31,411 nucleotides of DNA, taken from a virus. The notes under the pieces were generated by a model. It did no database searches. It saw nothing but the letters and a program-made list of their open reading frames with translations, and was not told the DNA's origin. This document shows, in pieces, positions 1-31,411 of this stretch. The translations under genes were made by a program, and so were the position numbers. The stretch is from IMG/VR virus record IMGVR_UViG_3300027736_000158, positions 1-31,411 of that record; one strand, 5' to 3'. Position 1 is the first letter of the stretch. Each line of letters starts with the position of its first letter.

Positions 1-12
1 GTGGCTAGCCAC
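1..12. other. cos-like terminal palindrome, left end
   Basis: Bases 1-12 are a perfect 12-bp palindrome (GTGGCTAGCCAC), and the first 11 bases recur as the last 11 of the window (31401-31411). Joining the ends through this overlap gives a single palindrome about 20 bp upstream of the small terminase start, which is where lambda-type phages place cos. The stop codon (TAG) of the leftmost gene sits in its centre. I infer a cohesive-end site with an overhang of about 11 nt. A circularly closed contig trimmed at this point, or attachment-site cores, are alternatives, but no integrase is present. Confidence 0.6.
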
Positions 13-535
13 GCGGCTCATGGGGGGGGGTTAAAAGATTCCTTTTAGGCCCCTTTACCCCTGTTTTCACGTGTGTGGATTTTACAGCACGTATACCAGA
101 TTCCACACGCGCTTTGAAGGATGCCACTTGCCCCATCGCAGCTTCGCGTGAGCAGCCGAGTAGCTTGCCGACCTGTCTCATGGTGAGCTTACTGCCTATG
201 CCTAGTCCAATGCGTATGACCTCGGCTTGGCCTCTCATCGCCGGACAGCGCTTACGTCCTATGGAGTCGAGCACGACCGAGAGGATGGCTAGTACCTGGT
301 CACGGTCGAAGGACTGAGCGCGGATCGTGGCGTCCTCCCCTTCGCTTTGGCGCAGGCGATAACAGGCGCGCGCTTCATCTAGCTCCATGACTGTGTCGCC
401 GGACTTAGGCAGTTCGCGGTACGGCCTGAAGCCAGCCGCTCTGGCCTTGGCCTGCTTGGCTGGGGACAATGAGTCAAAGTGAGCATCAACGGCTTGTTGG
501 TGCTCTGGCGGGATGTTGTCCTGAGTCTCGACCAC
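5..535 (-). CDS. Helix-turn-helix protein of unknown function beside the cos-like end
   Basis: This is a 176-residue protein opening with GTG at 535; the next in-frame ATG would remove about 50 residues. A helix-turn-helix-like stretch lies at about residues 117-140 (LTMRQVGKLLGCSREAA), resembling the sigma region 4 style of DNA-binding helix, followed by a basic tail rich in Lys and Arg. The N-terminal half has no recognisable domain. The gene is the last of the leftward series and follows the repeat-rich gap at 536-861, so it may regulate or bind that region. Its stop codon lies inside the terminal palindrome, and a run of nine C (sense strand) occurs six codons before the end. DNA binding is inferred from the helix pattern only. 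Confidence 0.6.
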   Translation of the reverse strand: MVETQDNIPPEHQQAVDAHFDSLSPAKQAKARAAGFRPYRELPKSGDTVMELDEARACYRLRQSEGEDATIRAQSFDRDQVLAILSVVLDSIGRKRCPAMRGQAEVIRIGLGIGSKLTMRQVGKLLGCSREAAMGQVASFKARVESGIRAVKSTHVKTGVKGPKRNLLTPPHEPRG

Positions 536-590
536 TTGACTGGGTTATGGGGTCTAAAGTGGGCTAAAGTGAAACTATAACCCAACGGGC

Positions 591-620
591 TTGTGTGCGG
601 CTGTGTGCAGTTGTGTGCAG
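591..620 (+). repeat. Three tandem 10-bp iteron-like repeats
   Basis: The units are TTGTGTGCGG, CTGTGTGCAG and TTGTGTGCAG, head to tail with an exact 10-bp period, about one helical turn. The exact reverse complement of the middle unit recurs at 773-782. Such phasing is typical of protein-binding iterons or operators. The binding protein is unknown; the adjacent helix-turn-helix protein or the primase-helicase are candidates. Confidence 0.6.
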
Positions 621-623
621 GGC

Positions 624-639
624 TTGCATACACCTTAAG
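624..639 (+). repeat. Left arm of a perfect 16-bp inverted repeat
   Basis: TTGCATACACCTTAAG is the exact reverse complement of 818-833. The arms are separated by 178 bp that hold the AT-rich and purine-rich centre, so this is too widely spaced to be a simple terminator. Paired protein-binding sites at an origin or control region are more likely. Confidence 0.7.
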
Positions 640-817
640 ACACTGACTACCAGCAAGGTTACAGAAGCCCCCTACTACTTACCTATAATTAAAGATAGAT
701 AGATATAGAGAGAGAGAGGAGAGGAGGGGGTAGGGATGACTCCAGTATAAAGGGGGCTATATATCCCAGAGGCTGCACACAGTCCACGGCTAACCTAAAG
801 CGTTACCGTTACAGACA

Positions 818-833
818 CTTAAGGTGTATGCAA
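818..833 (+). repeat. Right arm of the perfect 16-bp inverted repeat
   Basis: CTTAAGGTGTATGCAA pairs exactly with 624-639. Its inner GTATGCA (826-832) is inverted again as TGCATAC at 850-856, making a second, closer inverted pair just past the end of the primase-helicase gene. Confidence 0.7.
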
Positions 834-861
834 CTACGCCAACCTTGCGTGCATACAACGA

Positions 862-3504
862 CTAAGCGAGGAACGCAGACTTAGGAATACGGACGGCACG
901 ATGGGTAGAAGCACCGTAACGGCATCCGGCAAGGTGCACCGCTCCATCGACTCGGGCAAACTGATCCTTCCACTTATCGGCCCATGAAGTGTTCTCGAAC
1001 AGGGTACGCAGGGCCGGGTGATGGTTAGAGATGGAAACGGTATCGTCTTCGAGTTTCAGCCCTGAGCGCATCAGGTTGCTGCGGATGTTGTCGGCATCGT
1101 CCACGGTGACGTTTTGGGAGTAGTAAGCCTGTACCAGTTCGCCGATGGAGCGGGTATAGGTTCGGTCGTCCTGCTCAAAGCGGATGGACTTATCGAGCAT
1201 CCAGGCGAGCGCGCGGACTTCGTCCTGGTCAGCCTCATCGGGGAGGAAGCCGGTCCAGTTCTGCTTCTCGACCCAAGCGGTCGCGTCCTCAAGGGACAGG
1301 ACTCGCGTGGAGGTAAGGGAGAAGGCCCCAGACAGGAGAGCGCCTAACTGGTCACCGATGCGCTGGTCGCCTAGCTTGATGGCAACGGCCTTGGCAAAGG
1401 TGCGGGCGTTCTCGGTGATGGCTAAGGCATTAGCAAGGGAGCGTGAGCGGATACCCTCAGCGAAGCCAGGGCGGGCGATGGTATCGGCCCAAAGGGTCTT
1501 CAGCTGCTCGAAGCGAGCCTGACCGCCGTCGGTGTTATCCTTCCGCAGTTCAAGCGAGGTTATGCGGCTGGTATCGGCGCGCTGGTTAGCGGCCACGCCG
1601 ATAGAGGCGAAGGCGAAGCAACTGCGTATCTGGTACTCCATAGCCTTGCCTGAAGCGGAACCCTTACCGATGCCACCGCCAGTCTCAGCTGAGGCGGCGC
1701 GGGCGAGTTCAAGGATGGACTGCATCCGCATCTGGCCGCGCTTGTCCTCAGACTCGGCCTCGTCGAAAACGACTGGGAGGGCGTCTGAGCGCAGGCGTTG
1801 ACGGATGTAAGCCTCAGTGGTGGCTGACTGCACCGAAAGGGCAAGGCGACCCACCAGCGGGTCTAGGATGTTATTTAGGAGCCACGTCTTACCGGAGCCA
1901 GACGGACCGTTGACCCAGATATGGGGACGCCAGCCGAGGACGCCACAGATCGGGGCGATGACGCACCAGCCAGCAAAGAACTTAGAGTAGATAGGTTCTT
2001 TCCAGTTCATCATATCGGTCAGGGCCATGAGCCGCGCGGCCTCAGCGTTGGAGATGGGTTCAGCCTGGTCGGCCTCTAGGCGCTGGCCTTGAGTGTAAAT
2101 CCACTTAGACTTAAAGGATGGGATTGGGACCTCGGTGCTGGCGACTAAGAGGCGGTCGCCAGCGTGGAAGATGACTTGGGCTTCGTCGACCCAACAGCCA
2201 CGGCCACGGACTTTACGTGGGGCGAAGATGCCTTCACGGTGTCCGGCTTGGATGAGAGCGTTAGCGGCGGCTTTCCAATCGGCTCCTTCACGCCCGGGGA
2301 AGTGAGTCTCCCACCAGTTAGCACCAGCAAGTCTTAGGAAGGGCAGGTGCTTGTGGTCGTTGGCGGTGAGGCTGACAATCTGCTGGCTAGAGTCGGGCAG
2401 GTAGAAATAAACGCCGTCGTCGTGGCCGAGGACGCGGAACGGCCAAGGCTCCTCCTGCACGGGGTCAGGCTCATGCAGGGGTTGGGCGTCGAGGTTCGCG
2501 TAGTCGATAGCCTCAAGCACTTCAGGGGGAGGGGGTAAGTCGGCAGCGGGCGGGGTGGCGACGGGCTCGCCTCTGATGTGAGCGCGTACCATGTCGGTCG
2601 TCCAGCCTTCGGCCTCAGCGTCGGCAAGGTCCCAGCCATCGGCCACGTTAGCGGGCGGGGTGACGATGCGGACGTCTGGCAGTTGCTTGCGAATCAGCTC
2701 GATGCACTTGCGACCCGGCTCATCGGCATCAGGCCAAAAGAGGACGCGACGACCAGCAAGGGAGGACCAGTCGGCTAGGCTAACGGCCTTGGAGCCACCT
2801 GACCAGGTTGTGACGGTAAGGTTAGGCAGCAGACGGCTGGCGGCATCGGCGGTTTTCTCGCCCTCGACGATAAGCACCCACTTGTTGGCGTCGGCTACCG
2901 AGACAGCTGGCAGATTGAAAAGGGGGCGGGGCTTTGCGAATGACTTCCAGCGCCACGACTGCTTGCCGGAGACGTGCTCGCACCAAGTGATCGGCAGGAC
3001 TTCCTTAGAGCCATCGGCTAGGTCAAATCGACAGATCAGGCCGACGCGGTTACCTTCGGCGGTGAGATAGGGCCAAGTGGCAACTGGCTGGCCGTGCTTG
3101 TAGTGGTTCAGGTCTGGCTCATGGCAACCGTCTGGAGCGTGGGGAAGCGGTTCCCACTCCGACGCGGCTGATGGCTTGGACTCGTACTCAGCGCGCGGGG
3201 CGGTGGCAGAGGTAACACCAAGGGACAGACGCTCGGCCAGTTCGCGGGCGGCTTCGCCTTGCTTGCAACCCTTAATGGCGGCGAGAAGGGAGATGGGGTC
3301 GGAGCCTTTGTCGTCACCGGCGAAGTCGCACCACTTGCCTGTCGTTAGATTGATTGAGAGGCTAGAGCCTGGTTCGCCTCGGACTGAGCCGACCTTGAAC
3401 TCATGGCCGTCTTTCTTGCCAGCGGGGAACCATTCACAGCAGAGGGATTCAAGGGAGCCAAGCGCGGCGGCATTGACGGAAGCGAAGTCGAGACGAGGAG
3501 CCAT
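862..3504 (-). CDS. Toprim primase-helicase
   Basis: This 880-residue replication protein probably synthesises primers and unwinds DNA at the fork. From the N-terminus there is a CHC2-primase-like segment (around KWCDFAGDDKGSDPISL), a Toprim core with IVEGEKT at about residues 212-218 and an acidic FWPDADEPG at about 256-264, a linker rich in Pro, and a helicase ATPase with Walker A GPSGSGKT at about 533-540 and a Walker B-like VVFDEAE around 578-584. The C-terminus looks like a winged-helix tail. I chose ATG 3504 because it follows the recurrent leader box TCCCGCATTATAC and clears the upstream gene; an ATG at 3588 would overlap it. No DNA polymerase is encoded in the window, so a host enzyme is presumably recruited. 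Confidence 0.85.
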   Translation of the reverse strand: MAPRLDFASVNAAALGSLESLCCEWFPAGKKDGHEFKVGSVRGEPGSSLSINLTTGKWCDFAGDDKGSDPISLLAAIKGCKQGEAARELAERLSLGVTSATAPRAEYESKPSAASEWEPLPHAPDGCHEPDLNHYKHGQPVATWPYLTAEGNRVGLICRFDLADGSKEVLPITWCEHVSGKQSWRWKSFAKPRPLFNLPAVSVADANKWVLIVEGEKTADAASRLLPNLTVTTWSGGSKAVSLADWSSLAGRRVLFWPDADEPGRKCIELIRKQLPDVRIVTPPANVADGWDLADAEAEGWTTDMVRAHIRGEPVATPPAADLPPPPEVLEAIDYANLDAQPLHEPDPVQEEPWPFRVLGHDDGVYFYLPDSSQQIVSLTANDHKHLPFLRLAGANWWETHFPGREGADWKAAANALIQAGHREGIFAPRKVRGRGCWVDEAQVIFHAGDRLLVASTEVPIPSFKSKWIYTQGQRLEADQAEPISNAEAARLMALTDMMNWKEPIYSKFFAGWCVIAPICGVLGWRPHIWVNGPSGSGKTWLLNNILDPLVGRLALSVQSATTEAYIRQRLRSDALPVVFDEAESEDKRGQMRMQSILELARAASAETGGGIGKGSASGKAMEYQIRSCFAFASIGVAANQRADTSRITSLELRKDNTDGGQARFEQLKTLWADTIARPGFAEGIRSRSLANALAITENARTFAKAVAIKLGDQRIGDQLGALLSGAFSLTSTRVLSLEDATAWVEKQNWTGFLPDEADQDEVRALAWMLDKSIRFEQDDRTYTRSIGELVQAYYSQNVTVDDADNIRSNLMRSGLKLEDDTVSISNHHPALRTLFENTSWADKWKDQFARVDGAVHLAGCRYGASTHRAVRIPKSAFLA

Positions 3505-3544
3505 GTATAATGCGGGATGGCCCAAGGTGTCGGCAGGGTAGCGG

Positions 3545-3889
3545 TCAGGCAACCAGAAAAGCGACGTCCTCGACCGAGCGCGCGACAATGGCGATACCCC
3601 CAGCCCTTTGGACAGCCTGCTGCCATGTCTCCTGCTCAGGGGTCAGCCTGCCTTTGGGGGCTTTAACCTCGACAGATAGGAAGCGGGCAAACCTTTGGCC
3701 TACCATGTCGGGGGTGATCGTAAGCGTCTGCCAGCCAATCAGGTCAGCCGAGCCGGTGGTCAGGCCGTAGCGGATGACGCGGCCAGAGCGGGGGTCCTTA
3801 TATGCGCCGGAGTTATTGCGGAACATCCGCACGGCGGGACACTTGCCCAGGGACAGTCGGATGTCCTGCTGGATGGCGGCCTCGCTCAT
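3545..3889 (-). CDS. VRR-NUC domain nuclease
   Basis: This compact 114-residue protein is essentially a lone VRR-NUC domain (PD-(D/E)XK superfamily). The hallmarks are GSADLIG with the metal-binding Asp at 49, VEVKAPKG with Glu74 and Lys76, and a conserved Gln at 86 in LTPEQ. The family cuts branched or structured DNA, and stand-alone phage versions are found beside replication helicases. It begins four bases inside the end of the helicase gene (ATGA overlap), so the two are probably translated as a coupled pair. Substrate choice, such as Holliday junctions or flaps, is inferred from the family. Confidence 0.88.
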   Translation of the reverse strand: MSEAAIQQDIRLSLGKCPAVRMFRNNSGAYKDPRSGRVIRYGLTTGSADLIGWQTLTITPDMVGQRFARFLSVEVKAPKGRLTPEQETWQQAVQRAGGIAIVARSVEDVAFLVA

Positions 3890-6945: not shown

Positions 6946-7220
6946 GATCTCAACGCAAACAAACGCCAGGAGAATTGGATTTAGGGACAGAAATAGTCCA
7001 AGATGATTTTTTTAAAAAAGAATGGCAAGGTATGCCCGAGTTTACAATGAACCCAGAAGTGCCAATGCGGACAATTAAAGTATCATTTAAAACACAAGAT
7101 GACATTGATGCGTTTTCAATGCTTATAGGGCAGATTATTAATGAAAACATTGAAAACTATTGGTTTCCGAAACTTAACAGAAACGCCTTTTCCGATAAGG
7201 TTTACACAGATGAATCCTAA
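6942..7220 (+). CDS. Small phage protein paired with the glycosyltransferase
   Basis: This is a 92-residue protein with an acidic N-terminus, then WQGMPEF, a beta-strand-like IKVSFKTQDDIDAFSMLIGQ, a NYWFP segment and a DES C-terminus. From memory this matches a small phage family with the pattern W-x-GMPEF ... I-V-x-F ... W-x-P that is often next to TET-associated glycosyltransferases; no function is known to me. The start overlaps the upstream stop as ATGA and is preceded by AAGGAGG. Composition is strikingly AT-rich (7081-7140 is 30% G+C by count) compared with flanking genes, so it arrived with the next gene as a cassette. Confidence 0.75.
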   Translation: MRSQRKQTPGELDLGTEIVQDDFFKKEWQGMPEFTMNPEVPMRTIKVSFKTQDDIDAFSMLIGQIINENIENYWFPKLNRNAFSDKVYTDES

Positions 7221-8064
7221 ATACCCCATTTATATCATTAGCAAAGGCCGGTGGGAAAGTCGCCTTACAGCAAAAGCTTTAGATAAAATTGCCGTACCTT
7301 ACCGCATTGTAATCGAGCCACAAGAATACGAACAATATTCTTCTGTTATTTCACCAAGAAAAATCATTGTCCTTCCATTTTCAAATCTTGGCCAAGGGGG
7401 TATCCCAGCACGGAACTTTGTGCTGGAACATTCTATCTCCGAGGGAGCTGCATTTCATTGGATCCTTGACGACAACATTCGGGCTTTTCGACGATACAAT
7501 AACGACAAGAAATACCTAGTAACCTCTGGCACAGTCTTTAAGTGCGCCGAAGACTTTGTAGAACGATACACAAACGTCGGGCTGGCAGGGTTTCAATACA
7601 GTAGCTTCATGGCATACAATCGCCAAAAACGTCCCTTCACATTAAACTGTCGTATATATAGTTGCATCCTCATTAACAATTCAATCGGCATGAAATGGGA
7701 AGGTCGATATAATGAAGACAGCGACCTATCCATTCGTTGTTTAAAGAACGGTTGGTGCACTATTCTGTTTAATGCGTTTCTCCAGGACAAGGCCGCAACA
7801 ATGACCATGAAGGGCGGAAACACCGATACACTTTACAATACTGGAGACAACCGCAGGGAGTTTGCCGAAAGTTTGAAACGTAAGCACCCAGATTGCGTTG
7901 AAGTAATTTGGAGGTTTAAAAGATGGCATCACTTAATACAGTATGACAAAATAAATCGACCGACTCTCCATAGAAATGATTGCATTTCTGTTAACCCCGG
8001 AATAGATGAATACGGCATGGTATTAAGCGAAGACGCCGCCAAGGAGGGCAACGGCCAGCCATGA
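7210..8064 (+). CDS. TET-associated-type glycosyltransferase
   Basis: This 284-residue GT-A-like glycosyltransferase resembles the TET-associated glycosyltransferase (TAGT) group of phages. Marks are the N-terminal strand YIISKGRW (8-15), IEPQEYEQY (35-43), PARNFVLEH (66-74), a DxD-like metal site ILDDN (85-89) and the acidic EDSDLS (169-174). TAGT enzymes are thought to put sugars on modified bases in phage DNA; no TET/JBP oxygenase is seen in this window, so the acceptor is unknown. The ATG at 7210 lies 11 bases inside the previous gene. The gene is AT-rich until about 8030, where composition reverts within the last residues (DAAKEGNGQP), which are encoded by the right copy of the 17-bp direct repeat. 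Confidence 0.85.
   Translation: MNPKYPIYIISKGRWESRLTAKALDKIAVPYRIVIEPQEYEQYSSVISPRKIIVLPFSNLGQGGIPARNFVLEHSISEGAAFHWILDDNIRAFRRYNNDKKYLVTSGTVFKCAEDFVERYTNVGLAGFQYSSFMAYNRQKRPFTLNCRIYSCILINNSIGMKWEGRYNEDSDLSIRCLKNGWCTILFNAFLQDKAATMTMKGGNTDTLYNTGDNRREFAESLKRKHPDCVEVIWRFKRWHHLIQYDKINRPTLHRNDCISVNPGIDEYGMVLSEDAAKEGNGQP
8033..8049 (+). repeat. Right 17-bp direct repeat flanking the glycosyltransferase cassette
   Basis: This is an exact copy of 6917-6933, read in the same frame (again giving AAKEG) at the very end of the glycosyltransferase gene. Its AAGGAGG lies about 13 bases before the next start at 8061. The AT-rich composition ends at this repeat. Confidence 0.9.
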
Positions 8065-8216
8065 CCCGCAAACAGAAGCGACGCCCTGAGCGTCTGAGAC
8101 CCGGCCTCAAGCAGCAGACGCCGGTCGAGGTTAAGGCCACCGCCCGCGAACTGGCAGAGCACCGCAAGCGCTGGGAGTACCTGTTCAGCCTTAACGTCTG
8201 GAAGCCTACCCGATGA
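8061..8216 (+). CDS. Very small basic protein
   Basis: This is a 51-residue ORF beginning MTRKQKRRPERLRPG with an extremely basic N-terminus and a helical C-terminal half (ARELAEHRKRWEYLF). It is linked by ATGA overlaps to the glycosyltransferase before and the next gene after, and has an upstream AAGGAGG. It may bind nucleic acid through charge. It would be the gene that originally followed the coiled-coil gene before the cassette entered. Confidence 0.6.
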   Translation: MTRKQKRRPERLRPGLKQQTPVEVKATARELAEHRKRWEYLFSLNVWKPTR

Positions 8217-8569
8217 CCACCCCCTATAACTCTCACTCCTCGGCGATCAGTGCGATGAATAACCTAATAGATAAGCACGTCCCGCTTAGGGAAGCCGCCC
8301 TGCATGAGCATTACATGAAGGCCGATGAGACGCGCGCGCTGCTCAAGGCGATGGGTTGCTGGCCCGCCAAGACTGGCCGTCCCTCTGAGGTCAGGGGCAA
8401 GAAGCCCAAGAACGGCAAGACCGCCAGCGAGAAGGGGCGAGAAGCCTATGAATGGGCGCGCAAGAATAACGCCACTTATACCGAGGCCGCCGAACGGTTC
8501 CGCATCTCCGCCGACTCTATCCACTCCTACCGCCAATACCGCAAACTCCCTAAACTAAAAACTAAATGA
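8213..8569 (+). CDS. Small DNA-binding-like protein
   Basis: This is a 118-residue protein with a helical N-terminal part, a basic Lys/Gly-rich linker (about residues 55-75) and a C-terminal helix-turn-helix-like segment (NATYTEAAERFRISADSIHS). DNA binding is inferred from that segment and the high charge. It begins and ends in ATGA overlaps within the rightward block. Confidence 0.6.
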   Translation: MTTPYNSHSSAISAMNNLIDKHVPLREAALHEHYMKADETRALLKAMGCWPAKTGRPSEVRGKKPKNGKTASEKGREAYEWARKNNATYTEAAERFRISADSIHSYRQYRKLPKLKTK

Positions 8570-8733
8570 ACCCCGACTACTACGAAGACGAACTGACCAG
8601 GCTCCGGCTACGGCTGCATGAGGCCGAACTCCAGCGCGATGCCTTCAAAGCGATGGCCACGCACGTCCTGAAGGACCTAATCCGCGAGGTGCTGACTGAA
8701 CAGGCTGGCGTTACCAATCACCCCAATGGCTAA
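8566..8733 (+). CDS. Very small helical protein
   Basis: This is a 55-residue acidic helical protein (MNPDYYEDELTRLRLRLHEA) with heptad-like Leu spacing, possibly a short coiled coil. It starts in an ATGA overlap and overlaps the next gene by eight bases. Its position in a gap that would otherwise be empty, between tightly packed genes, supports it being coding. Function unknown. Confidence 0.55.
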   Translation: MNPDYYEDELTRLRLRLHEAELQRDAFKAMATHVLKDLIREVLTEQAGVTNHPNG

Positions 8734-9052
8734 CCGCGCACAATACGGATCGGTTCAGGCGGCAGTCATCGCCGGGCATGAACATTGTATGTCGGTCAAT
8801 GACATCGCCAAGCACACGGGTTTCAATATGCGGTCAATCCGTTCGGCAGCTGAGGACCTGTCCGTAGTCCTGCGCCGTGAGCGTAAGCCGTTCGGCTCGG
8901 CCAAGGCGCTGGTCTTCGAGGCCCATGCTCAGGGGATGACCGTCCCGCAACTGGCAGAGGCATCAGGGTTTAGCCGTCACACGCTCTACACTGCTCTGCG
9001 TCGCTACGGCCTAGCCCTTCCACGTGCCCGCCAAGGCCGTTTGACCCCATGA
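8726..9052 (+). CDS. Double helix-turn-helix DNA-binding protein
   Basis: This is a 108-residue protein with two helix-turn-helix-like units in tandem: MSVNDIAKHTGFNMRSI (about 22-38) and MTVPQLAEASGFSRHTL (about 71-87). The duplicated layout suggests binding to two adjacent half-sites and a role as regulator. It overlaps the small upstream gene by eight bases and the lysozyme-like gene by four (ATGA), so it may be made together with the lysis enzyme. Target unknown. Confidence 0.65.
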   Translation: MANRAQYGSVQAAVIAGHEHCMSVNDIAKHTGFNMRSIRSAAEDLSVVLRRERKPFGSAKALVFEAHAQGMTVPQLAEASGFSRHTLYTALRRYGLALPRARQGRLTP

Positions 9053-9522
9053 GTCTAGTCCTAGCCCTATCAGCCGCCCTGCTCGCCTCTGAGGCCATCC
9101 CAGAGGCTGTCGTGCAAGCGGTCGAACAGGTCGAGTCCTCTGGGCGTGGGTCTAAGACTCCAGATGGTGACGGTGGCAAGGCTATCGGATGCCTACAGTG
9201 GCACTCGGTAGCGTGGAAAGATTGCTCGGCTATCCGGCTCAAGGCGGGGCTGGCCGTCTACCCCTATGCCGACGCAGCAGTACCGACGAAGGCGCGCGAG
9301 TATGCCCGGACCTGGCTGACGGTGCTCAAGGTTAGGCTGGCTGAGGAGATTGGCCGACAGCCGTTCCCCGGTGAAATCTGGCTGGCATGGAATCTTGGCT
9401 GGTCTGGGTTTCAGCGCTATGGCTTTAGCTGGGCGCACGTCTCACGCGTCAAATTCGACAAGGCTAGGCAGGTAAACACCGTGGCTTGGGGCTTGCCAAA
9501 GCGGCCTGCCGTCTCAAGGTAA
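9049..9522 (+). CDS. Secreted lysozyme-like (lytic transglycosylase-type) enzyme
   Basis: This 157-residue protein probably cleaves the glycan strands of peptidoglycan. It opens with a hydrophobic signal-like segment (MSLVLALSAALLASEA). The fold cues are those of the lysozyme/SLT superfamily: a helix ending in VES with the candidate catalytic Glu at 29, then AIGCLQW (45-51, like the SLT AIGLMQ motif) and LAWNLGWSGFQRY (112-124, like the AYNAG-x-x-x-V/Y motif). Signal-mediated export would make it holin-independent or a SAR-type endolysin. It is the last gene of the rightward block and faces a hairpin region. The holin candidates lie far away on the other strand. Confidence 0.65.
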   Translation: MSLVLALSAALLASEAIPEAVVQAVEQVESSGRGSKTPDGDGGKAIGCLQWHSVAWKDCSAIRLKAGLAVYPYADAAVPTKAREYARTWLTVLKVRLAEEIGRQPFPGEIWLAWNLGWSGFQRYGFSWAHVSRVKFDKARQVNTVAWGLPKRPAVSR

Positions 9523-16320: not shown

Positions 16321-18911
16321 AGCGAAGTAATGATTTTATTTTGACCAAATAATTGACCAAGCGACGTTGCACCCTGCGTGCCGTCAGCGTAGGTTTCAAT
16401 GGAATAGCGGTTCTGTGTGCCGGTGCTTGCAGTCGTAGGTGCGCCTGATGCCGTGCCGTAAGAAACCCCATCGACAAACAGTTCTGCCGTTCCGTTACCG
16501 TAAGAGATGACGGCCATCTGGTGAACGTAGTTTGCCGTCAGGTTAGTCGCCAGCGGGTAGGTGCTATTAGTGGTAGTCAGCGTCGTCCCGTTATGGGTCA
16601 AGATTTTGACGTATGTCTGACCCGCAATGATTTCCAGACCAATGCCACGAGTAACCAGCGTGCCGCCAGAGGCAGACTTGCCGAGCGTGATGCGGATAAG
16701 CACGCCACTCGGGAAAGCCGTAGACTCACGATTGGTCACGCAACTAAAGCCGACCGTCTTAGTCCAGTCCACGATGTCACGATTAGTTAGCCCGTTGTAA
16801 TGCGTACCGGTTGTATAATATGCACCAGCGTAACCAGCAACCGTAACGGGCGTATAAGCAAGGAGCGCACCCCAATAGAGGCTTGCAGAAGCTCCAGCAC
16901 CAGAGGTAGCCGTTGTGAAGGCCGAGGACATTGGTGTGATTACTCCTTTATCAGAAAATGTGATGCCGAGTAAAGACACAGGGCTGGATGCCGTTGTCGT
17001 GCTTGTAGCCTTAGAGGTGTTTAAGACGCTGGCAAACGCCGGAACCGCCGCCGTGACGAAAGCCGTGGTGGCCAGCGCCGTAGTGTTGTTTCCAGCGGTC
17101 TGGGTGATGGCCGTCGTACCCGTTGGCAAGGATGGCGTGCCGCTGAAAGTCGGGCTGGCAAGAGCGGCGCGTGAGGTGTCCGTCGGATGGACGTGATCCT
17201 GGCGAGCGTAGCGCGTGGACGTACCGACGGCAGCCGTACCATCCACGAGCGGGGTGGCGGCAGCGGCTTGTGCGACGACGAAGGCGGTGGTGGCAATCTG
17301 GGTCGTGTTCGTGTCTACTGCGGCAGTGGTCGAGAGAGGTGAGCCGGTGAAGGTCGGACTTGCAAGGTTGGCCTTGAGGTCCAGCGCAGCCTGCAAGTTC
17401 GTATTGCCAGAGACTGCCCCAGTGATGTCAGCGAAGGCCACCGAGGTCGCAGGGGTGACGCCGCCCACGTTAACCACCCATGAGGCGTACGTTCCCGAGC
17501 CGGTGTGGTGGTTGATGTCCACGGTTAGGACGCCAGTGCTTGTGCTGTACGTCAGCACCTCGCCGTGCATATGGTTCGACGCGTTGTAAGAAATCGTGAT
17601 GTTCTGGGTCTGCGTGTACGAAAGGTCAGTGCCGATCGTGAAGGTCTTGTTGCCGTTGCCGATCGTGTTGCTTGTCGTCGAGCTGCTCAGGTAGCGGTCG
17701 CCGAACGCCTGGGCCTTGACGTAGGCCGTCGTTGCGATGGAGGTATCGTTATCAGAGGTGGGCGGAGTCGGGGCGGTCGGGTTTCCCGTAAAGGTAGGCG
17801 AGGCTAAGGTAGCGTAACCTGTGAAGCCGGGGAAAGCGGTTCCCTGATAGCTATTATCTGGAAAATATATTCCATCTGCTAGCATGGACGTAACCCCCGA
17901 GGCGTTCTGAACCGTAAAGCCATTGTAACTTGCTTGTGCCTCATCAGGTGCAGCGCCTTGCCAAGAGACAAAGCCATTAAGCGAGCCGCCATTAAGTGAC
18001 AGGTACAACGCATTAGCCTGTGCCGTGGTCGAGTAATCCGCAGCCGTAGCCGTTGCCATCGTGCCAAGTCCAGAGATGTCGGTATTCGACAGCGTGATCG
18101 CACCCGTGCGTCCAGCGACCGAAGTCACAGGGGCCGAGGTGATGTATCCCTGGGCCTTGACGAAGGCCGTGGTAGCGATGCTGGTATCGTTATCCAATGT
18201 CGCAGGGGTCGGGGCCGTAGGGTCGCCCGTCAGCGCCACGTTATTGAAGCCAGGGAAGGCGATGGTCTGGACACTGGCGTTTCCGAAGGTGATGCCAGCC
18301 GAACCAGTCGGCAGCTCAAAGCCACCGCCGTACGGATTGAAGATGTAGTAATTATGCGTCCCAGCCCCTGTGTCGTTATACGCGTCGATGACCAGGTTTG
18401 TGTTTAACAGGTTCTTAATCGTAGGGACTAAGAGCGTGCCGGACATCGTGCCGCCAGCTAGGGGAAGATAAGGAGCAAGCGCTGCTGACGTCAGGAAGCC
18501 CGATGGGTTACCGGTAAGGGGATAATACAACGCAGCCGCCTGTGCTGTGGTCGAGTACGCTGACAAGTCCACTGCCAGATTACCAGACGTGACCCCGAGC
18601 GGAGCAGAGACGCTGGTAATGAAGTCCGCGGGGAGGGTCAGCCAGCCAGTGTCATAGGATACCCCAGATAATTTCTGGAGCACCTGCCCGGTACTACCGC
18701 CAGCCGCCACGCCTTGACCGGGAGCACCAGTCGCCCCAGTAGCCCCAGTAGCGCCAGTCGGCCCAGCTGGACCAGGGACTCCAACGCTGCCCGACAGGGT
18801 TCCAGTGACCGTGCCAGTGACCGTGCCGGTGATCGTAGACTGGTCGGCGGCAAACGTGCCGGAGATGGTCCCGAAGGTCGAGGCCGTCGAAGTGATGATC
18901 GCGTCGGGCAT
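16317..18911 (-). CDS. Tail fibre with collagen-like segment, IATTAFV repeats and lectin-like C-terminus
   Basis: This is an 864-residue probable receptor-binding fibre. Residues 44-65 form eight Gly-X-Y triplets (GPAGPTGATGATGATGAPG), a collagen-like trimer. Four repeats of the type G-x-P-x-A-P ... IATTAFVKAQ occur at about 222-254, 372-402, 518-548 and 587-622. A classic fibre piece VGTSTRYARQDHVHPTD lies near 562-578. The last 160 residues (NRDIVDWTKTVGF to ELFVDGVSYGT) look like a LamG/concanavalin-type beta-sandwich likely to bind sugars. It is encoded last among the tail genes. The stop overlaps the next start (ATGA). Confidence 0.88.
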   Translation of the reverse strand: MPDAIITSTASTFGTISGTFAADQSTITGTVTGTVTGTLSGSVGVPGPAGPTGATGATGATGAPGQGVAAGGSTGQVLQKLSGVSYDTGWLTLPADFITSVSAPLGVTSGNLAVDLSAYSTTAQAAALYYPLTGNPSGFLTSAALAPYLPLAGGTMSGTLLVPTIKNLLNTNLVIDAYNDTGAGTHNYYIFNPYGGGFELPTGSAGITFGNASVQTIAFPGFNNVALTGDPTAPTPATLDNDTSIATTAFVKAQGYITSAPVTSVAGRTGAITLSNTDISGLGTMATATAADYSTTAQANALYLSLNGGSLNGFVSWQGAAPDEAQASYNGFTVQNASGVTSMLADGIYFPDNSYQGTAFPGFTGYATLASPTFTGNPTAPTPPTSDNDTSIATTAYVKAQAFGDRYLSSSTTSNTIGNGNKTFTIGTDLSYTQTQNITISYNASNHMHGEVLTYSTSTGVLTVDINHHTGSGTYASWVVNVGGVTPATSVAFADITGAVSGNTNLQAALDLKANLASPTFTGSPLSTTAAVDTNTTQIATTAFVVAQAAAATPLVDGTAAVGTSTRYARQDHVHPTDTSRAALASPTFSGTPSLPTGTTAITQTAGNNTTALATTAFVTAAVPAFASVLNTSKATSTTTASSPVSLLGITFSDKGVITPMSSAFTTATSGAGASASLYWGALLAYTPVTVAGYAGAYYTTGTHYNGLTNRDIVDWTKTVGFSCVTNRESTAFPSGVLIRITLGKSASGGTLVTRGIGLEIIAGQTYVKILTHNGTTLTTTNSTYPLATNLTANYVHQMAVISYGNGTAELFVDGVSYGTASGAPTTASTGTQNRYSIETYADGTQGATSLGQLFGQNKIITSL

Positions 18912-31382: not shown

Positions 31383-31411
31383 GTTAAAAAAAACGGCGGG
31401 GTGGCTAGCCA
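31383..31411. other. Right terminal region with cos-like repeat
   Basis: A run of eight A (31386-31393) and ACGGCGGG precede the terminal GTGGCTAGCCA (31401-31411), identical to bases 1-11. On the minus strand this is the leader of the small terminase gene, CCGCCG followed by eight T. Joined with the left end it forms the palindrome GTGGCTAGCCAC. Confidence 0.6.

Follow-up and report, generated by a model that had tools for sequence, protein, structure and literature searches.

The question raised by this locus is what function lies in a 326-bp gap (536-861) between two genes of a 31,411-bp IMG/VR phage record, which as a whole is called the window here. An earlier note had proposed the gap as a candidate replication origin, and the conservation of its repeats in relatives supports the proposal. 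We take the putative origin to be the whole gap, from the stop of a primase-helicase gene (862) to the start of a helix-turn-helix (HTH)-like gene (535), on the basis of an alignment of 19 versions of constant length, shuffles and a proximity test. Judged from these sequence comparisons, the gap is very probably the replication origin of the phage, at a rough probability of 0.85.

Gene order and repeats of the gap

The minus-strand gene order starts with TerS (31409-30876) and continues with TerL, portal, tail, lysis, ligase and exonuclease/RecT genes. After a plus-strand block with a TAGT glycosyltransferase come a helicase (5259-3886), a Holliday-junction-nuclease-like ORF, the primase-helicase (3588-862), the gap (861-536) and the HTH-like gene (535-5), which is followed by TerS again across the joined record ends. 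No DNA polymerase was recognised among the window proteins scanned, and no close DNA relative of the window was present in the phage collection searched. The TAGT-family (TET-associated) glycosyltransferase (7141-8064) lies inside a low-GC block (0.41) and suggests that the phage has glycosylated modified bases; a distant relative, L060, also has one (8215-9108), beside a ParB-like gene. Cumulative GC skew had its minima close to the contig ends, where the direction of the genes confounds it, and the minimum of the circular relative G004 did not coincide with the putative origin.

The three tandem units described in the earlier note are present at 591-600 (TTGTGTGCGG), 601-610 (CTGTGTGCAG) and 611-620 (TTGTGTGCAG), as are the exact inverted unit at 773-782 and the AT-rich, then GA-rich tract at about 681-736. 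What had been missed is that a single motif, TGCANACR, is common to the tandem units and the inverted arms. It occurs seven times, starting at 592 (degenerate), 602, 612, 625, 774, 825 and 850, and these seven sites, grouped as two inverted clusters on either side of a core, are the probable functional unit. Three of the 8-bp sites lie on one side of the polypyrimidine/AT-rich core and four on the other, and the clusters are mostly inverted. Iteron 1 (TGCATACA, 850-857, plus strand) is the weakest site in several relatives. Iteron 2 (TGCATACA, 825-832, minus) carries a TTAA extension, and iteron 3 (TGCACACA, 774-781, plus) is the inverted unit at 773-782. On the other side there are iteron 4 (TGCATACA, 625-632, plus), iterons 5 and 6 (both TGCACACA, 612-619 and 602-609, minus) and the degenerate iteron 7 (CGCACACA, 592-599, minus), whose position is the same in all relatives. 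The 16-bp perfect inverted repeat (624-639 and 818-833) of the earlier note is exact, but its arms are iterons 4 and 2 plus the TTAA extension, and they are conserved as such. The CTAAAGTG pair is likewise present (554-561 and 564-571), but it is not conserved in relatives.

Six of the nine exact TGCANACR matches in 31.4 kb fall within the 326-bp gap, and for each of the 19 versions 0/1000 dinucleotide shuffles reached the observed count. In a motif-blind repeat scan of the window the gap came second with a score of 5.1, behind a coding region with 6.3, so it is conservation and comparison that carry the case.

The putative melting core (681-736) consists of a GA/TC tract (705-736) and an AT-rich stretch (681-717), reads CTCTCTCTCTATATCTATCTATCTTTAATTATAGGT on the minus strand, and is assigned from its conservation and from an alignment with the distant relative L210. 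A conserved core edge, TATAGCCCCCTTTATA (746-761, minus strand), appears as TATAGCCCCC[CT]TTAT in nearly all relatives. The single-strand fold of the gap gave z = -2.6, with no single long hairpin.

The minus strand also carries AAGTAGTAG triplets (672-680), a TAG run which resembles DnaA-trios in sequence and direction only, and which is (TAG)3-4 in most relatives. Most lineages have runs of TAG/TAA triplets in their cores (Fisher P = 1e-8 vs core-composition shuffles, with lineages treated as independent), and the strand direction of these runs matches the DnaA-trio consensus 3'-GAT-5', where DnaA boxes stand 10-13 bp from the trios (PMC8287927). These points would fit an origin driven by host DnaA with the TAG triplets as DnaA-trios, but such an origin is very improbable. 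The shuffles leave microsatellite slippage out, the triplet run of the window is just AAGTAGTAG (P = 0.8), and about 37 nt separate the triplets from iteron 4, against 10-13 bp. The DnaA boxes are absent too: TTWTNCACA does not occur in the window, the earlier note having seen no standard boxes in the region either, and no DnaA box was found in the 12 origin regions examined. An own initiator, also suggested there, is the best reading for the putative origin, and it is likely the primase-helicase and not the neighbouring HTH protein.

The gap in close and distant relatives

The close-relative set comprised 19 distinct gap versions, the window included, with primases 81-97% identical. The order primase-gap-HTH is kept across all of them, and TerS is mostly next where the contig extends so far. 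The aligned gap with short flanks measures 369-373 nt in 19/19 versions, and all seven sites stand at equal offsets. The earlier note had named conservation of the repeats in relatives as a check, and the seven sites proved to be kept in place across the 19 versions. Their non-variable columns are better conserved than the remainder (mean majority 0.93 vs 0.80). A DNA-pattern scan for further close relatives gave no new lineages.

The sites evolve in concert. Iteron base 5 is A in 16 genomes, and T (or T and C) in the window, L003/L026 and L015/L031. The window and L029 have primases that are 97% identical; their base 5 is different at 7/7 sites, against 39/271 of the other columns (Fisher P = 2.3e-6), and they share more than 100 nt in the centre of the gap almost unchanged. 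Because the sites change together, they should be read by one protein.

The distant set consisted of phages and bacterial genomes with primases 35-50% identical; the bacterial genomes were found by an alignment-based contig scan, an earlier single-protein scan having given none. Different iterons occupy the same place beside these primases: GTCTGCA in L018, GTTACC in L062 and L066, TCCTAACGGT/CCGTTCGGA in Synechococcus phage S-H1 and TGCTWACA in KLER1-1. In bacterial genomes they are GTTACC (L208), AGCGTGACA (L210, 14 copies), GATCTAAC (L216, L217 and L221), CTGTAACG (L218) and CGTGACA (L250). The iterons of L018, L062/L066/L208, S-H1, L210 and L216/L217/L221 are unrelated to those of the window. 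In S-H1 the predicted origin is at about 17,684-17,964 of the record. Most distant arrays surround a core of AT-rich or polypyrimidine DNA. Within these loci, repeat clusters are enriched at the primase stop over the remaining sequence (Fisher P = 3e-7, 26 lineages treated as independent), and the linkage of arrays with the primase-helicase extends to distant lineages. Of the distant lineages tested, about half lacked a clear repeat cluster immediately at the primase stop, and an array was not found there in the Bordetella and Pseudomonas phage relatives L038, L040 and L042. Origin-like arrays lie further downstream in L060, L063 and L068 (0.4-1.9 kb; 0.9-1.9 kb for L063 and L068), and L019, which has a rearranged gene order, carries its array between the HTH-like gene and the primase 5' end. 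The high repeat scores at L067 1451 and L069 6551 were rejected as coding-looking tandem repeats.

The core is conserved as well. L210 is an uncultured betaproteobacterium with a primase 38% identical to that of the window, and its core can be aligned with that of the window for about 90 bp (score 30 vs a shuffle mean of 8.8; 0/500 shuffles as high). Since the L210 core is homologous though the iterons are unrelated, the core was kept and the iterons were exchanged.

Some other features of the bacterial loci were seen. A fused ParB-like and N6/N4 DNA methyltransferase gene (L210 2328-3599) comes directly after the origin in the betaproteobacterial MAG. The terminase large subunit ORF of L216 (4883-6271) has LAGLIDADG homing-endonuclease matches, probably an intein or intron homing gene. 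L218 and L219 are two primase-helicase-region matches of equal score, 56 kb apart on one Vulcanococcus MAG contig, and represent either a duplicated element or an assembly effect.

The primase-helicase as candidate initiator

The proposed initiator is the primase-helicase (862-3504, minus strand); the ORF spans 862-3588, and relatives start at ATG 3504. It matched the profiles phrog_35358 (3.9e-114) and phrog_239, and a sequence search of solved structures with the primase gave nothing significant. Its model had a pLDDT of 74.8, with a T7-gp4-like TOPRIM domain (Z 14.4). Model residues 383-908 align with SCCmec Cch (5dgk_B) over 404 residues (Z 12.7, rmsd 8.0), a match of moderate strength, and many MCM chains also match the C-terminal half (Z 12-13). 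The model thus suggests, with moderate strength, that the helicase has an MCM-like AAA+ core of the type seen in Cch and SaPIbov1 Rep. Pfam DUF927 was absent among the hits at E <= 0.01 of 22 members; so we do not file the protein as a DUF927 member, though fold and workings would be alike.

The proposed iteron reader is a C-terminal winged-helix domain of about residues 789-908 (865-1224, minus strand; pLDDT 91 in the model). When modelled alone, the last 129 residues gave a winged helix with a pLDDT of 91.1. Its best match among 998 chains was SaPIbov1 Rep 452-554 (8tch_A; Z 5.2, rmsd 3.4, 87 residues), where the Z is weak and the rank is telling, and the oriT-binding relaxosome accessory protein of pCW3 was also among the top structural matches. 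Foldseek alone gave nothing below E 0.2 for this domain. We consider it likely that the iterons are read by the C-terminal domain of the primase-helicase.

A candidate specificity residue was found in the same domain. Residue 852 (Ser852 codon, 1033-1035, minus strand), in the strand after the recognition helix, segregates in close relatives with the iteron base-5 switch: S or C is seen with T/C, and A (T in L005) with A. Within the domain only 852 and the very C-terminal residue segregate in this way; position 702 of the primase-helicase, outside the domain, does so too. L019 (C852, TTGCATTC) is only consistent with the pattern. As a simple code residue 852 was rejected, since L018 has A852 but reads TGCAGAC (base 5 = G) in the window register, and the claim is confined to close relatives. 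Base 5 switched by two changes on the primase tree, and with so few independent switches residue 852 is a lead, not a proof.

By analogy, the putative origin would be of the SaPI-Rep/Cch kind with a TOPRIM primase fused to the helicase. The C-terminal domain of SaPI Rep reads iterons that lie immediately downstream of the gene encoding it (PMC7581432). The predicted helicase core of the window protein resembles that of SaPIbov1 Rep and Cch, its C-terminal winged helix may do so too, and the short-repeat array immediately 3' of the initiator gene, seen in close and distant relatives, is a further likeness. The differences are the fused TOPRIM primase, a cos-type tailed phage instead of an island, unrelated iteron sequences and the lack of a Pfam DUF927 match. 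SCCmec Cch2 and SaPI5 PriRep1 are primase-linked helicases whose C-terminal domain binds direct repeats downstream of the gene (PMC7581432). The window protein is primase-linked as well, and PriRep1 was among its Foldseek matches; Cch2/PriRep1 (D5/Primase_Cterm type), however, have another helicase subfamily and primase type, with three AAGTG repeats in contrast to seven sites around a core. In pRN1 the gene for a primase-helicase that ends in a winged helix is followed directly, on its 3' side, by the origin (PMC4234260). This position is shared by the putative origin of the window, whereas pRN1 has a 100-nt stem-loop instead of iterons and an archaeo-eukaryotic primase. Phage P4 alpha combines TOPRIM primase, helicase and origin reading by a C-terminal winged helix in one protein (as summarised in PMC4234260). 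The window protein is predicted to have the same layout. The P4 type I repeat is GGTGAACA, and P4 has a second element (crr) elsewhere; this repeat was found in 0/12 origin regions.

At the gap we infer binding, melting, loading and priming. The C-terminal winged-helix domains would bind both iteron clusters (three and four sites). Two helicase rings would probably assemble around the core and melt its polypyrimidine/AT-rich DNA, and each ring would load itself on one strand. The TOPRIM domain of each loaded ring could then prime DNA synthesis, and the host polymerase would extend the primers. An origin at which the C-terminal winged helix binds TGCANACR iterons in two clusters around the core is, as the whole explanation, very probable. 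Far more speculative, and rather improbable, is a widespread modular origin. There the core would be recognised as a single strand via TAG/TAA triplets, in DnaA-trio fashion, by the unrelated MCM-like primase-helicase, and the specificity for exchangeable iteron arrays would be re-set by residue 852 of the initiator wing. If this were true, concerted switching of seven sites would give incompatible phage replicons.

The putative origin read by the primase-helicase gives a concrete candidate origin and initiator for an uncultivated phage group and for similar elements in bacterial genomes. It would extend the staphylococcal-island origin type, in which a self-loading helicase reads iterons immediately behind the gene that encodes it, to tailed phages and further elements in Proteobacteria, Cyanobacteria and Verrucomicrobia that have a TOPRIM primase on the helicase. 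With all seven sites switched in concert between otherwise near-identical origins, and with a candidate residue for specificity, the locus offers a natural experiment on how an initiator and its origin exchange partners jointly.

The HTH-like gene and the record ends

In close relatives the HTH-like gene (5-535, minus strand, 176 aa) is conserved and stands between the putative origin and TerS. Its product had no Pfam/PHROG/NCBIfam match and no homologue found in named phages, and its HTH resembles sigma region 4 weakly. The gap could be only a promoter/operator for this gene and the packaging genes beyond, the repeats being repressor sites, perhaps bound by the HTH protein. The gap is directly upstream of the gene, autoregulation is common, HTH-protein residues 27 and 150 also segregate with the iteron type, and close relatives conserve TTATAGTTTCACTT (567-580, minus strand) near the gene start, a possible -10 region or auxiliary site. 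But no sigma-70 promoter match was called in the gap, TTATAGTTTCACTT included, and an operator needs no AT/polypyrimidine core between inverted clusters. The arrays also stay with the primase-helicase while the downstream gene varies (ParB-DNA methyltransferase in L210, TSCPD protein in L250, NikA/RHH-like in S-H1). At best one weak homologue of the HTH protein stands beside a distant array (L019, E 8e-6), and none was found beside the L018, L062, L066 and S-H1 arrays, or in L039. A gap with this function only is thus improbable, though it may be both origin and promoter. Because the HTH protein is without a clear homologue beside most distant arrays and the constant partner is the primase-helicase, the initiator is likely not the HTH protein.

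The record ends bear on another explanation. Positions 1-11 and 31401-31411 share 11 bp, GTGGCTAGCCA, within the palindrome GTGGCTAGCCAC; L002 has TGGCTTGTCAC at both of its record ends, and the junction of HTH-like gene and TerS is also where L008 and L012 stop. The shared ends probably mark a cos site whose cohesive end is about 11 nt long. This putative cos is about 0.6-0.85 kb from the gap, TerS is the next gene after the HTH-like one, and it has two residues that segregate with the iteron type, as would be expected if the gap were a packaging element with cosB-like terminase small-subunit sites near the cos end. A whole gene separates the sites from cos, however, and L210 has the homologous core and arrays beside its primase but a ParB-methyltransferase gene next, so a packaging element is highly unlikely and replication origin remains the preferred reading. 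Beside the putative cos, at the 3' end of the HTH-like gene, there is a ten-G run (21-30; poly-C on the coding strand), and a C run is kept in most relatives.
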